Origin: Mucilaginibacter sp.
GTDB taxonomy: Bacteria > Bacteroidota > Bacteroidia > Sphingobacteriales > Sphingobacteriaceae
NCBI RefSeq assembly: GCF_028288205.1
Contig: NZ_JAQBOD010000035.1
Span: 1 to 64,000 of the forward strand
Reading direction: 5' to 3'
DNA length: 64,000 bases
The notes below the pieces were generated by a model. It had not been told where the DNA came from. It saw only the letters and a program-made list of their open reading frames with translations, and did not search any database. Both the position numbers and the translations under genes were made by a program. Positions 3 to 52,534 of this stretch are shown here, in pieces (within the stretch, counting starts at the first letter, position 1; every line of letters begins with the position of its first letter).

Positions 3-173
3 TTTGCTAAAACTACAAGCGAAAAAAACAACCTGGGTACTGCTGACAGAACTACTACTGAGAAAAACAATTTAGGCACTGCTGACAGAAACGGCGAAAA
101 AAACAATTTAGGTACTGCTGACAGAAACGGCGAAAAAAACAATTTAGGTACTGCTGACAGATTCTTATCTTAA
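3..173 (+). CDS. C-terminal fragment of a small protein with four tandem EKNNLGTADR repeats (5' end outside the window)
   Basis: Frame 3 open from the window edge to TAA at 171-173: FAKTTSEKNNLGTADRTTTEKNNLGTADRNGEKNNLGTADRNGEKNNLGTADRFLS*. Not in the ORF track (too short/partial). Confidence 0.5.
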   Translation, partial: FAKTTSEKNNLGTADRTTTEKNNLGTADRNGEKNNLGTADRNGEKNNLGTADRFLS

Positions 174-200
174 CTATATAACTTAAATAAAATTAACACC

Positions 201-368
201 ATGAAAAAAATAGTAATAATAACCGGGATAGTTTTAACAACAGGATTAACTGCATTTTCATTAACCAGGAAAGAAAATAAAACAGAAGAAGTAAAAGTGA
301 AAGTAGAAAATCTGGATAACAAAGCAACTACTCAAAGCGCCAATGTAATATTAGCTACTGCTGATTAA
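201..368 (+). CDS. Small exported peptide (55 aa) ending in LATAD
   Basis: ATG 201 to TAA 366-368: MKKIVIITGIVLTTGLTAFSLTRKENKTEEVKVKVENLDNKATTQSANVILATAD*. Signal-peptide-like N-terminus. Not in the ORF track (<60 aa). Confidence 0.5.
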   Translation: MKKIVIITGIVLTTGLTAFSLTRKENKTEEVKVKVENLDNKATTQSANVILATAD

Positions 369-1319
369 TTACCGGGTAACTATCATTTTCTTGCTCAATA
401 ACTGCCCGCCAACCTGCATACTATATATATATATACCCGGATCAAGATTATTTAAAGAGACACTAATGGTTCTATAACCGGCATTTTGATAAGAATCATA
501 TATATTCTTAATAAGCCTCCCGGTCATATTATACAAATTTATCTGCACACGCCCCGCCTGCGATAAACTGAACCCGATAGTAGTACGGTCGATAGAAGGA
601 TTAGGGTAATTTTGGTTAAGGCCTATAACCAACAATTTATCATCAATTGCACGATTAATTGCATCAAACCACACATAACTTATTAATTTATATCCCGCAG
701 CATTAGGATGCACATAATCCTGGTACAAGGTAAAATCACGGCCCAACGCCCGGTTTATATCTGCAAGGTAAACATGATACTCGTCCACCAATCTTTTATA
801 TAAGGCATTTATTTGGTTTACATATAAATTTGCCGTTTTATAGGTTTGATTATTTTTATCATTAAAAAACTGTATGGTACCTATTATAGGTATAAGGTTA
901 TGCTTTAATGATGTTTCTATATAATACCGCATATTCTTTTCGGTATCGCTAATTTTAAATTTCTTAGCAGCCAAACCCAACGCGTCATTCGATCCCATTA
1001 ATATCAGTACAAACCCCGTACGTCCGGCAATGGCTCCCGGAAACCTTGCTAAACCCTGTGTTGTTGTTTCGCCAGCAATACCGTTTGTGGTAACACTAAC
1101 AATTTCACCGGTATAACATGACTCAATATTGTTCAGTAAATCTGTCTGGAAAGAAAAACCACCTACGCCGGCTACCGTACTCGCTCCGAAAGTAGTTACA
1201 TTAATACTATCCTTACCATAAAATTTAGCAGCAGCACTACAACTAGGAATTTGTGCGTAACCGGAGAAAAACAAAATGGAAAGAATAAATGAAAGAAAAA
1301 TTATCTTACGATAACTCAT
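369..1319 (-). CDS. SGNH/GDSL-type hydrolase with C-terminal T9SS type A sorting domain
   Basis: Signal peptide; GASTVAG block, GSND and DYVHPNAAGY motifs; C-terminal NYPNPSIDRTTIGFSL...GRLI...GIYIYSMQVGGQLLSKKMIV typical of Por/T9SS type A. Confidence 0.85.
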   Translation of the reverse strand: MSYRKIIFLSFILSILFFSGYAQIPSCSAAAKFYGKDSINVTTFGASTVAGVGGFSFQTDLLNNIESCYTGEIVSVTTNGIAGETTTQGLARFPGAIAGRTGFVLILMGSNDALGLAAKKFKISDTEKNMRYYIETSLKHNLIPIIGTIQFFNDKNNQTYKTANLYVNQINALYKRLVDEYHVYLADINRALGRDFTLYQDYVHPNAAGYKLISYVWFDAINRAIDDKLLVIGLNQNYPNPSIDRTTIGFSLSQAGRVQINLYNMTGRLIKNIYDSYQNAGYRTISVSLNNLDPGIYIYSMQVGGQLLSKKMIVTR

Positions 1320-1496
1320 TTATTACAATTAAAATCAACGTGTAAATATATATAAACGTTCAATCAAATACATTAACCTACGCTAAGTATTTATTAACCA
1401 AATGTATAATTGCAAAAACCTGACTTATAAGTCTAAATATCAATATCCTCCTGTTCTTATATAAACATGAGTTATATTTGTTCAAAATTGACAGCA

Positions 1497-2867
1497 ATGC
1501 AGGATATAAAACAATATATAGAGCAACACAAACAACGTTTGTTAGATGAACTTTTTGAACTATTGCGTTTCCCATCGGTTAGTGCCGACCCCAAATATAA
1601 ACCTGACGTATTAAAAACTGCCGATTATGTAGCAAAAAAACTAAGCGAAGCGGGTGCAGACCATGTTGAAATTTGCCAAACTGCAGGCTATCCTATTGTT
1701 TATGGCGAAAAAATAATTAACCCATCCAAACCAACGGTTTTAGTTTACGGTCATTATGATGTGCAGCCACCAGATCCGTTGGAACTATGGAAAACACCGC
1801 CGTTTGAACCAACAATACGCGATGGTAAAATATATGCGCGTGGTGCATGTGATGATAAGGGTCAGTTTTATATGCATGTAAAAGCTTTTGAGTTGATGAT
1901 GCAAAACGGCTCACTACCTTGTAATATCAAATTTATGATAGAAGGCGAAGAGGAAGTTGGATCTAACAACCTGGGTATATTTGTAAAAGCTAATAAAGAA
2001 AAGTTGAAAGCTGATGTGGTACTGATATCTGATACCTCGATGATCAGCATGGAACACCCGTCGCTTGAAACCGGTTTGCGTGGCTTATCCTATCTCGAAG
2101 TTGAAGTTACCGGCCCTAACCGCGATCTGCATTCGGGTGTATACGGGGGGGCGGTAGCCAACCCCGCTACTATATTGGCTAAAATGATTGCTTCTTTGCA
2201 TGATGAGAATAACCATGTTGCAATACCCGGCTTTTATGATGAGGTAATTGCATTGACAGATGCCGAGCGTAAAGAAATAAACGCCGCACCGTATAACGAA
2301 GAAGAATATAAAAAAGACCTTGGTGTTGCCGAGCTATGGGGCGAAAAAGGCTATACCACTTTTGAGCGCACCGGCACCCGCCCTACTTTGGAAGTGAACG
2401 GAATTTGGGGAGGATATATTGGCGAAGGTGCAAAAACCGTGTTACCATCAAAAGCCAATGCAAAAATTTCTATGCGTTTAGTACCTAACCAGGGTTCTGA
2501 GAAAATTACACAGCTTTTTACCGATCATTTTTTAAAGATAGCCCCGCCATCAGTAAAAGTAAAAGTTACACCGCACCATGGCGGCGAACCCGCTGTAACA
2601 CCTACCGATAGTATTGCCTACCGTGCCGCGCAATTAGCTATAACAGAATCATTTGGTAAAACGCCAATACCTACACGAGGTGGCGGCAGCATACCTATTG
2701 TTTCTTTATTTGAAGCAGAATTAGGTATAAAAACTGTATTAATGGGTTTTGGATTAGATAGCGATGCACTGCATTCGCCTAACGAGAAGTATGATATTTT
2801 TAATTATTACAAAGGGATAGAAACCATACCGTTGTTTCATAAATATTTTGCGGAATTGAGCAAATAA
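1497..2867 (+). CDS. M20 family dipeptidase
   Basis: VLVYGHYDVQPPDP, IEGEEEVGS, RGGGSIPIV motifs. Track start 1467; MQDIKQ at 1497 preferred because a TATATTTG box lies at 1473-1480. Confidence 0.9.
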   Translation: MQDIKQYIEQHKQRLLDELFELLRFPSVSADPKYKPDVLKTADYVAKKLSEAGADHVEICQTAGYPIVYGEKIINPSKPTVLVYGHYDVQPPDPLELWKTPPFEPTIRDGKIYARGACDDKGQFYMHVKAFELMMQNGSLPCNIKFMIEGEEEVGSNNLGIFVKANKEKLKADVVLISDTSMISMEHPSLETGLRGLSYLEVEVTGPNRDLHSGVYGGAVANPATILAKMIASLHDENNHVAIPGFYDEVIALTDAERKEINAAPYNEEEYKKDLGVAELWGEKGYTTFERTGTRPTLEVNGIWGGYIGEGAKTVLPSKANAKISMRLVPNQGSEKITQLFTDHFLKIAPPSVKVKVTPHHGGEPAVTPTDSIAYRAAQLAITESFGKTPIPTRGGGSIPIVSLFEAELGIKTVLMGFGLDSDALHSPNEKYDIFNYYKGIETIPLFHKYFAELSK

Positions 2868-6640: not shown

Positions 6641-8197
6641 ATGCCTTATCAGAACCGCAGATCAACCTATACCACTTTTATACTGGTATTTGTAGTTATT
6701 AAAGTAGTATTAAATCTTTTCGCAATTTCTCATTTCGGGTTTCAACGCGATGAGCTTTTGCACCTTGCTTTGGGCGATCATTTAGATTGGGGTTACAAAG
6801 AAGTACCGCCATTTATAGCGGTGCTGGCTAAGGTCACTACCGTAGTATTTGGTAGCTCGGTTTTTGCGGCGCGCATATTCAGTACCATATGCGCGGGCCT
6901 TATTGTTTGGTTAGTTGGCTTAGTAACGGTTGAGCTTGGCGGCAAAATGTTTGCTATTACGCTGGCTTGCTTAAGTTTCATTTTCGCCCCAGCATTTGTT
7001 GCCAGCGATTACTTGTTCCAGCCGGTGGTATTCGACCAATTATGGTGGATTTTAGCCGTATGGCTTATCATCAAATACATTAATCACCACTCTGTAAAAT
7101 ACCTTTATATATTAGGCGTGGTAATTGGCATTGGCCTGCTCACCAAATATACAATGGGCTTTTTTACTATTGCATTAATACTTGGGCTATTGCTTACCAA
7201 ACAACGTAAACTATTGTTGAACCGCCATGTGTTAGGCGCAGCTGCAGTTGCTTTTTTAATATTCCTGCCCAACCTTATATGGCAATTTCAGCATCACTTG
7301 CCGATAATAACCCATATGAAAACGCTGCAAAAAAACCAGTTAAACTATATCAAGCCCGCTGATTTTATTATGCAACAAATAAGCGTTAATGGCATTGCTT
7401 TATTTTTATGGTTAATTGGGTTTGGCTTTTTGTTGTTTTCCTTCAAGCTGCGTAAATTTCAATTCCTGGCGTTTGCTTATGTGCTGATATTTATTTTCCT
7501 TATGGAAATGAGTGGTAAAAACTATTACATATTTGGCGCGTATCCTATGCTTTTTGCTGCTGGCGCTTATGCTTTTGAGCGCTGGATAAATGTTAAGCAT
7601 ACGGCCTTGCGTGCATTGGTAGTATGTTTATTTACTCTACCAAACTTAGTAATGTTTCCCATGCTATTACCGGTATTGCCGTTAAAGCCAACTTTATCTT
7701 TTTTTGATTTTGTTAATAAGCATACTCATTTTATGAAATTTATAACTGTTTGGGAAGATCGGAAAAACCATGCCACCAGCCAGGATTACGGCGATATGTT
7801 TGGTTGGGACGAGCTAACTCAAAAAGTAGCCAAGGTGTATTACAGTTTAACGCCCGAACAACGCAAAAACACCCAAATATTTGCAGATAATTATGGCGAA
7901 GCAGGTGCCTTACATCATTTTGGGAAACAATATAATTTACCCGAAACAGCATCATTAGGAAGCAGTTTTACTTTATGGGCGCCTGATAATTTGGATGCAA
8001 AATATATTATTTATGTAGATGACTGGGGCGGTAAAAATATAGCACGTTTAGCGCCGGTATTGGTTAGCTATAAAAAGGTAGACGAAATTGAAAATCCATT
8101 AGCCGTAGAAAAAGGCACAGGCATTTATTTTATTGAAACCAAACCCCAACTAAATATTGGTTATAAAAAGGAGCTGGCCCAGAAACGAATGGAATAA
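6641..8197 (+). CDS. Glycosyltransferase family 39 / ArnT-like membrane protein
   Basis: Multi-TM protein; N-terminal FQRDELLHLALGDHLDWGYKEVPPF typical of GT39. Confidence 0.8.
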   Translation: MPYQNRRSTYTTFILVFVVIKVVLNLFAISHFGFQRDELLHLALGDHLDWGYKEVPPFIAVLAKVTTVVFGSSVFAARIFSTICAGLIVWLVGLVTVELGGKMFAITLACLSFIFAPAFVASDYLFQPVVFDQLWWILAVWLIIKYINHHSVKYLYILGVVIGIGLLTKYTMGFFTIALILGLLLTKQRKLLLNRHVLGAAAVAFLIFLPNLIWQFQHHLPIITHMKTLQKNQLNYIKPADFIMQQISVNGIALFLWLIGFGFLLFSFKLRKFQFLAFAYVLIFIFLMEMSGKNYYIFGAYPMLFAAGAYAFERWINVKHTALRALVVCLFTLPNLVMFPMLLPVLPLKPTLSFFDFVNKHTHFMKFITVWEDRKNHATSQDYGDMFGWDELTQKVAKVYYSLTPEQRKNTQIFADNYGEAGALHHFGKQYNLPETASLGSSFTLWAPDNLDAKYIIYVDDWGGKNIARLAPVLVSYKKVDEIENPLAVEKGTGIYFIETKPQLNIGYKKELAQKRME

Positions 8198-52485: not shown

Positions 52486-52489
52486 ATAT

Positions 52490-52534
52490 AACTAATCTCT
52501 AATTAACTAATCTCTAATTAACTAATCTCTAATC
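52490..52534. repeat. Tandem repeat 3 x 15 bp (AACTAATCTCTAATT)
   Basis: Units at 52490, 52505, 52520; 19-bp inverted copy GATTAGTTAATTAGAGATT at 52368-52386. Confidence 0.85.

Follow-up and report, generated by a model that had tools for sequence, protein, structure and literature searches.

A multi-copy peptide gene array linked to a TPR receptor-like protein in Mucilaginibacter, with short-peptide counterparts in related genera

What are two tiny open reading frames (ORFs) with a common L[GA]TAD ending doing at the edge of a Mucilaginibacter contig, and do they belong to something larger? The window analysed here, the whole 64,000-nt stretch at positions 1-64000 of contig C49, opens in frame 3 at base 3 with FAKTTS, runs through four EKNNLGTADR units separated by TTT, NG and NG, and closes with FLS and a stop codon at 171-173. 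The preliminary description had reported four such copies, spaced by 13, 12 and 12 aa and ending in FLS, with a 55-aa ORF ending in NVILATAD 27 nt past the first; re-reading the frame reproduces the former exactly, and the second ORF is real. Because the window begins at the contig edge, the left ORF is truncated by the assembly break and has no real gene start. Its FAKTTS, which resembles the SFA.. end found in such genes, most likely closes a signal-peptide region, and therefore the four copies of this gene are probably complete. The 3.9-Mb genome contains GCNACNGCNGAY-TAA just three times, at the peptide locus in every case, and the reversed control not at all, which is more than chance would give.

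A search of the same genome placed the EKNNLGTADR repeat in one other position only, the extreme end of contig C1 (locus L004) of the same assembly. The gene order there is a PcrA/UvrD-type helicase, an XRE regulator, a 97-aa protein, a convergent gene for a 475-aa protein and divergent peptide ORFs (Table 1). The nine EKNNLGTADR units known from the genome have the same protein sequence, differing at synonymous positions only. A close relative (L057) shows the complete layout, with two single-copy genes, two multi-copy genes and then the homologous last gene; because of this, and because both contigs end in the same repeat, the array of this strain most simply comprises five genes, two of them multi-copy, although the join between C1 and C49 is inferred rather than sequenced. 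Extending the locus leftward, as had been advised, hence yields the receptor gene and the anticipated tandem paralogues (two single-copy genes and a second multi-copy gene), but only across that inferred join. The left ORF is not the tail of a large unrelated protein, one of the conditions that would have refuted the first proposal. The first observation of two tiny ORFs is therefore correct, but understates the locus, and such an array is easily missed by gene callers, while its repeats break short-read assemblies.

Table 1. Coordinates of the peptide array, the TPR gene and neighbouring genes on locus L004 (contig C1) and in the window (contig C49).
Feature	Sequence	Position	Strand	Remarks
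XRE regulator	L004	6437-6805	+	convergent with the TPR gene
97-aa protein	L004	7011-7304	+	not assigned to any known family; convergent with the TPR gene
TPR-TM-HisKA protein, 475 aa	L004	7308-8735	-	divergent from the peptide array
48-aa ORF	L004	9121-9267	+	lipobox; ends MLATAD*
47-aa ORF	L004	9328-9471	+	ends IILATAD*
Second multi-copy gene	L004	9548-9805	+	MKKIIIAIAIIFSTSITTSFANTLSG-(EKNNLGTADR..)n; at least 5 units; runs off the contig
Multi-copy propeptide gene, 3' part	window	3-173	+	FAKTTS, four EKNNLGTADR units, FLS, stop; 5' end absent at the contig edge
EKNNLGTADR repeat unit 1	window	21-50	+	
EKNNLGTADR repeat unit 2	window	60-89	+	
EKNNLGTADR repeat unit 3	window	96-125	+	
EKNNLGTADR repeat unit 4	window	132-161	+	
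Last array gene, 55-aa single-copy exported peptide	window	201-368	+	MKKIVIITGIVLTTGLTAFSL...NVILATAD*; LATAD codons 351-365; homologous last gene in L057, L060 and L062
GDSL-like lipase	window	369-1319	-	C-terminal Por_Secre_tail sorting domain for type IX secretion; immediately follows the array
M20-type dipeptidase	window	1467-2867	+	borders the array in most loci, in related genera too

The 475-aa protein served as bait in named genomes, and the loci recovered come from Mucilaginibacter, Daejeonella, Hufsiella, Pedobacter and related MAGs; this set overlaps with the G-numbered genomes, and counts from the two are never summed. Signal-like small ORFs, with signal peptides called by hydropathy and without SignalP, lie divergent from the TPR gene in all 73 of the 73 orthologue loci that have at least 700 nt upstream, which removes the objection that the small ORFs might not be conserved in relatives. 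An exact Asp end is present in 233 of the 319 complete signal-like small ORFs upstream of the TPR gene, and in those ending otherwise the motif mostly sits just inside the end or appears as internal copies. On the opposite side of the TPR gene, an equal ORF criterion returned 127 ORFs, none Asp-ended and none with the motif. Of 150 genomes of the genus, 34 matched a longer pattern for KD[LIV]GTAD; matches numbered up to 33 in one genome and clustered on one strand, and controls gave 0 or 1. The idea that the small exported peptides are paralogues with a common C-terminal L[GA]TAD, and that one of them grew by tandem duplication, holds across this genus of soil bacteria.

The receptor was detected in 84 of the 251 sampled genomes of the order, many of them Mucilaginibacter, with some members of a further seven genera in the family; among those listed, the genomes without it belong to other genera. 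It was absent from plasmid and phage records at the thresholds used. Related genera have one to seven short, mostly lipoprotein-like peptides at the homologous position, with ends such as LGSFD, IGTWD, VGTWD, LGSYD, SGWD, TQWD, LASWD, LGMGD and IGTGD; most finish in ..TWD, ..SFD, ..SYD or ..SWD, with a few exceptions (e.g. ..SSHCD, ..KYD and ..TYGE). As these other genera carry few single-copy peptides, the state before amplification was probably one to few single-copy peptides, later amplified in Mucilaginibacter. Two genes of a deep Mucilaginibacter clade have a short tail past the motif (LGTGDGG.. and LGTADGGI), RF, GK or FMA follows in some lineages, and most long repeat genes lack a terminal Asp. 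One genome (G089, locus L196) has the TPR gene with no recognisable peptides.

The peptides had originally been described as possibly pheromone-like, adhesive or substrates of a processing enzyme. The first of these options is now favoured, because the array almost always adjoins one gene for a TPR membrane receptor-like protein, although function has not been demonstrated. We think it reasonably probable that the locus encodes a secreted multi-copy peptide pheromone and a TPR membrane receptor; its gene structure, conservation, linkage, purifying selection and domain layout are directly established, and processing, binding and output are inferred. Each small gene would specify a Sec-exported precursor, in some cases a lipoprotein, in which a short peptide with an acidic end is present once or up to dozens of times. 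Once exported, the precursors would be cut by proteases beyond the inner membrane into short peptides, probably of 5-8 residues ending in Asp. The 475-aa protein, as receptor, would bind these in the concave groove of its periplasmic TPR superhelix, and binding would shift the state of its HisKA-like helices on the cytoplasmic side of the membrane. The signal dose would rise with the number of copies per gene and of genes per array, and joint divergence of the receptor ectodomain and the peptide would give species-specific signalling. Against the pheromone reading, there are no binding, processing or phenotype data, and the output of the receptor is unexplained without a kinase ATPase domain. 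The residues that follow the Asp in some lineages, the lipobox-bearing members and the peptide-less G089 locus also count against it.

The layout of the 475-aa protein is a signal peptide, TPRs predicted to be periplasmic (TPR_12 match, 4e-16), one transmembrane (TM) helix and a HisKA-like helix pair, after which it ends. The HisKA match (1.5e-5) scores 25.4 bits, just under the curated cut-off of 26.9, and His419 of this module is invariant in 47/47 aligned orthologues. No HATPase domain was detected in the two proteins scanned, and all 47 aligned orthologues stop after the DHp helices. With the catalytic domain missing, identification as a complete two-component sensor histidine kinase was rejected; and because the invariant His is present without an ATPase domain, the HisKA-like (DHp) module would need another protein for catalysis, a kinase or a response regulator on which or with which it would act. 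The protein is single-copy in this genome, where the next TPR kinases are approximately 27% identical and full-length. Separately, another HisKA-like sensor of approximately 390 aa, with an N-terminal part that appears GAF/PAS-like by eye, also ends without a HATPase domain (L145; G000 contig C51, about 6967-7152), so that DHp outputs lacking a kinase domain may recur more widely in this genome. Other paralogues were seen in passing: G003 has three TPR paralogue genes at contig ends, where the contigs break, and in related genera a distant receptor paralogue that keeps a kinase-like C terminus adjoins a likely response regulator gene, with peptides absent nearby (L179 4144-7076 and L183 4852-7726).

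The AlphaFold2 model (mean pLDDT 85) predicts a TPR superhelix, most blocks of which score above 90 in confidence, followed by a long helix through the membrane and a DHp hairpin. Its neighbours in the PDB, which include 8rtc and 4gyo, are peptide-bound LGN/Pins TPR domains, Rap proteins with pheromones and BtubC, and profile searches matched consensus TPRs, LGN, RapI, HOP TPR2A, RapF and NprR; Rap (by profile and fold) and NprR (by profile) rank behind generic TPR proteins such as LGN. The A helices lining the groove are more conserved than the B helices (1.32 versus 1.69 bits), and R76 is invariant (47/47). A conserved Asn ladder in the groove was considered as a sign of a particular ligand and dropped, because the generic TPR consensus has it too.

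Across 72 Mucilaginibacter receptors, mean identity is 51% in the ectodomain and 85% in the cytoplasmic part. The latter evolves slowly, as do the neighbouring helicase (86%) and M20 dipeptidase (87%), whereas the ectodomain evolves fast. Motif distance correlates with ectodomain distance after removal of helicase distance (partial Mantel test, partial r 0.245, p 0.002), reaching 0.284 for the C-terminal half of the ectodomain, and has no partial correlation with the cytoplasmic part (-0.02), the XRE regulator (0.05) or the 95-aa protein (0.03). Among pairs with near-identical helicases, ectodomains are 90% identical where the motif is the same (23 pairs), and 79 to 62% identical where it differs by one to three changes (10 pairs). 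The M20 dipeptidase retains a residual partial r of 0.166 (p 0.02), weaker than that of the ectodomain; because of this background, the comparison of sequences is only suggestive of receptor ectodomain and peptide motif evolving together.

The same parts could instead be read as envelope-resident ligands and not as diffusible signals: small tethers, periplasmic or lipoprotein, that load or inhibit the TPR protein of the same cell with their tails. The locus would then sense envelope stress or assembly, with a threshold fixed by the amount of peptide. This is unlikely. A Cys lies in the lipobox region of 53 of the 150 single-copy members, approximately one third, and lipobox-bearing members may stay membrane-anchored; the short, lipoprotein-like form of most outgroup members and the predicted periplasmic location of the TPR ectodomain point the same way. 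However, most Mucilaginibacter members have no lipobox, and expansion to 38 copies per polypeptide, along with the fast divergence of both motif and ectodomain between species, is what diversifying extracellular signals typically show, unlike conserved envelope physiology.

Conservation is concentrated in the motif. The consensus tail is [KR][KR]D[LIV][GAS][TS]AD, represented in this genome by KNNLGTAD and LATAD. In 150 single-copy Asp-ended peptides, entropy per position exceeds 2.8 bits through the linker and drops only over the last eight residues, of which the last four were used in selecting the set and positions -5 to -8 are independent; the second position of the octamer is [KR] or variable. 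Across 110 multi-copy genes, pS is 0.71 and pN 0.016 (pN/pS 0.02) for the four residues that precede GTAD, which played no part in unit selection, and pN/pS is 0.41 for the three-residue spacer after the Asp. The frame is thus under purifying selection, contrary to the possibility of frame-breaking substitutions that would have undermined the original proposal. Units of multi-copy genes agree within a species, and the octamer varies between species (KNNLATAD, KRDLGSAD, KKDVGSAD, KQDLGQAD, RTALGTAD, KNNTGSGD and others). Genes carry between one and 38 copies, the maximum being a single ORF with 38 motif copies (L086), and the largest array has 12 genes (L130). Long tandem repeat proteins bearing signal peptides could also be repeat-rich surface or matrix proteins, adhesive or surface-binding, that spread by slippage; this is improbable, as the same motif terminates 150 non-repetitive peptides of 40-66 aa, the octamer is conserved while repeat number is not and spacers are much freer, and the linkage is strictly to one TPR protein.

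Pfam and NCBIfam contain no family for the peptides, with sub-threshold lipoprotein matches reflecting the signal sequences. Multi-copy core peptides are known among RiPPs, a precedent that would admit a multi-core RiPP or bacteriocin precursor family, as would a very weak NCBIfam match of outgroups to a chryseobasin-related precursor (E 0.012-0.014, below the cut-off). That identity is highly improbable: the peptides have ordinary Sec-like signals and a small, polar core without Cys, and nothing nearby could be identified as a conserved gene for a modifying enzyme, a transporter or immunity, although not every flanking ORF was scanned. The neighbours are the helicase, the XRE regulator, the 95-aa protein, the GDSL lipase and the M20 dipeptidase, none of them a modifying enzyme. 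Finally, selfish or neutral slippage, with small ORFs kept by chance beside the TPR gene, would suit the volatile copy number and the arrays that break assemblies, but is scarcely tenable: the selection data (an octamer pN/pS of 0.02) already refute it, and conservation across genera of one family and the 73/73 linkage speak against it too.

The arrangement favoured here, pheromone and receptor, is accompanied by candidate control elements and a variable set of neighbours. A Bacteroidota-type promoter, TTTG-N18-TATATTTG, is aimed at the array at L004 8847-8876 and is kept in close relatives; TTTG-N17-21-TAnnTTTG has a match in 22 of the 73 leaders but in only 1.4% of shuffled leaders; for the palindrome TTAACTA-N-TAGTTAA, allowing up to two mismatches, the figures are 15 of 73 and 2.2%. 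An imperfect palindrome, ATTAACTA-N-TAGTTAAT, lies upstream of the first peptide gene at about L004 9055-9075 and in homologous leaders, and is possibly an operator. No RNA known to Rfam was found in the array leader or the window. The XRE regulator is present in nearly all Mucilaginibacter loci (L104 being the sole absence in the set) and in no outgroup except L134, and the 95-aa protein is found in most Mucilaginibacter loci and in no outgroup; being largely absent from outgroups, both fall outside the minimal pair. A similar small XRE gene was observed near a second, shorter TPR paralogue in G010 (L184). A close homologue of the GDSL lipase is beside the array in just 7 of 82 loci tested, with more distant homologues elsewhere. 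Further along the window, at 52489-52533, is a perfect 15-bp tandem repeat of TAACTAATCTCTAAT in three copies.

In Bacillota, TPR receptors are known that respond to linear peptide pheromones. As in the Rap-Phr/RRNPP (RRNPPA) systems of that phylum, a TPR receptor of 250-500 aa, here 475 aa, stands beside a small Sec-exported precursor, with a short peptide at or near the precursor C terminus that is more conserved than the rest; the TPR part also resembles Rap proteins in structure. Tandem identical or near-identical copies are likewise shared, Phr3T and Phr105 having duplicated pheromones. Multi-copy Phr precursors have up to 8 copies, and in duplicated Phr pheromones the copies are conserved and the remaining precursor is not (PMC11343458), just as repeat units in this array are conserved and its spacers freer. 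However, this is a system of Bacteroidota rather than Bacillota, with many precursor genes per receptor and up to 38 copies per gene, and its receptor carries its own signal peptide, crosses the membrane by a TM helix and ends in a HisKA-like output, so that the TPRs are predicted to be periplasmic instead of cytoplasmic. Because that receptor is predicted to be membrane-bound and lacks an HTH or the Rap three-helix bundle as output, membership of RRNPP/RRNPPA was rejected, although the inferred mode of action is like that of Rap-Phr.

The receptor also resembles Bacteroidota TPR sensor histidine kinases such as FimS of Porphyromonas (NF053520) in its periplasmic TPRs, TM helix and DHp pair, and the NCBIfam model matches its TPR region (E 1.8e-15) but scores far short of the family cut-off; it differs in having no HATPase domain, no paired response regulator at the locus and an adjacent peptide array. 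In fungal Kex2-processed and alpha-factor type precursors, basic residues often precede each copy. These too work as secreted multi-copy precursors (for Kex2-processed repeat proteins, PMC7329392); the array is bacterial and has no homology to them. HOP TPR2A, which binds the C-terminal EEVD of Hsp70/Hsp90, likewise pairs a TPR groove with an Asp-ended ligand, but clamp residues are not established in this receptor and the Asp is not terminal in all lineages. An EEVD-type carboxylate clamp was accordingly demoted, because residues follow the Asp in some lineages, where recognition of a free C-terminal carboxylate would require cleavage after the Asp and cannot otherwise be general.

No description of this system was found in curated libraries or the open-access literature, most subscription journals being outside the scope of the search, and the locus has the appearance of a Gram-negative peptide signalling system that had not been described before. 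Whether it amounts to a new class of Gram-negative peptide quorum sensing, in which amplified, species-specific, Asp-ended pheromones would be read by an extracytoplasmic TPR receptor and passed by a kinase-less DHp module through a partner kinase, with coevolution across the Sphingobacteriaceae, is a more tentative proposal, whose chances we place a little short of even. If the anatomy reflects function, Bacteroidota have a peptide communication system with an unusually high pheromone copy number. If true, these arrays would supply ready-made receptor-ligand pairs for studying the evolution of signalling specificity.
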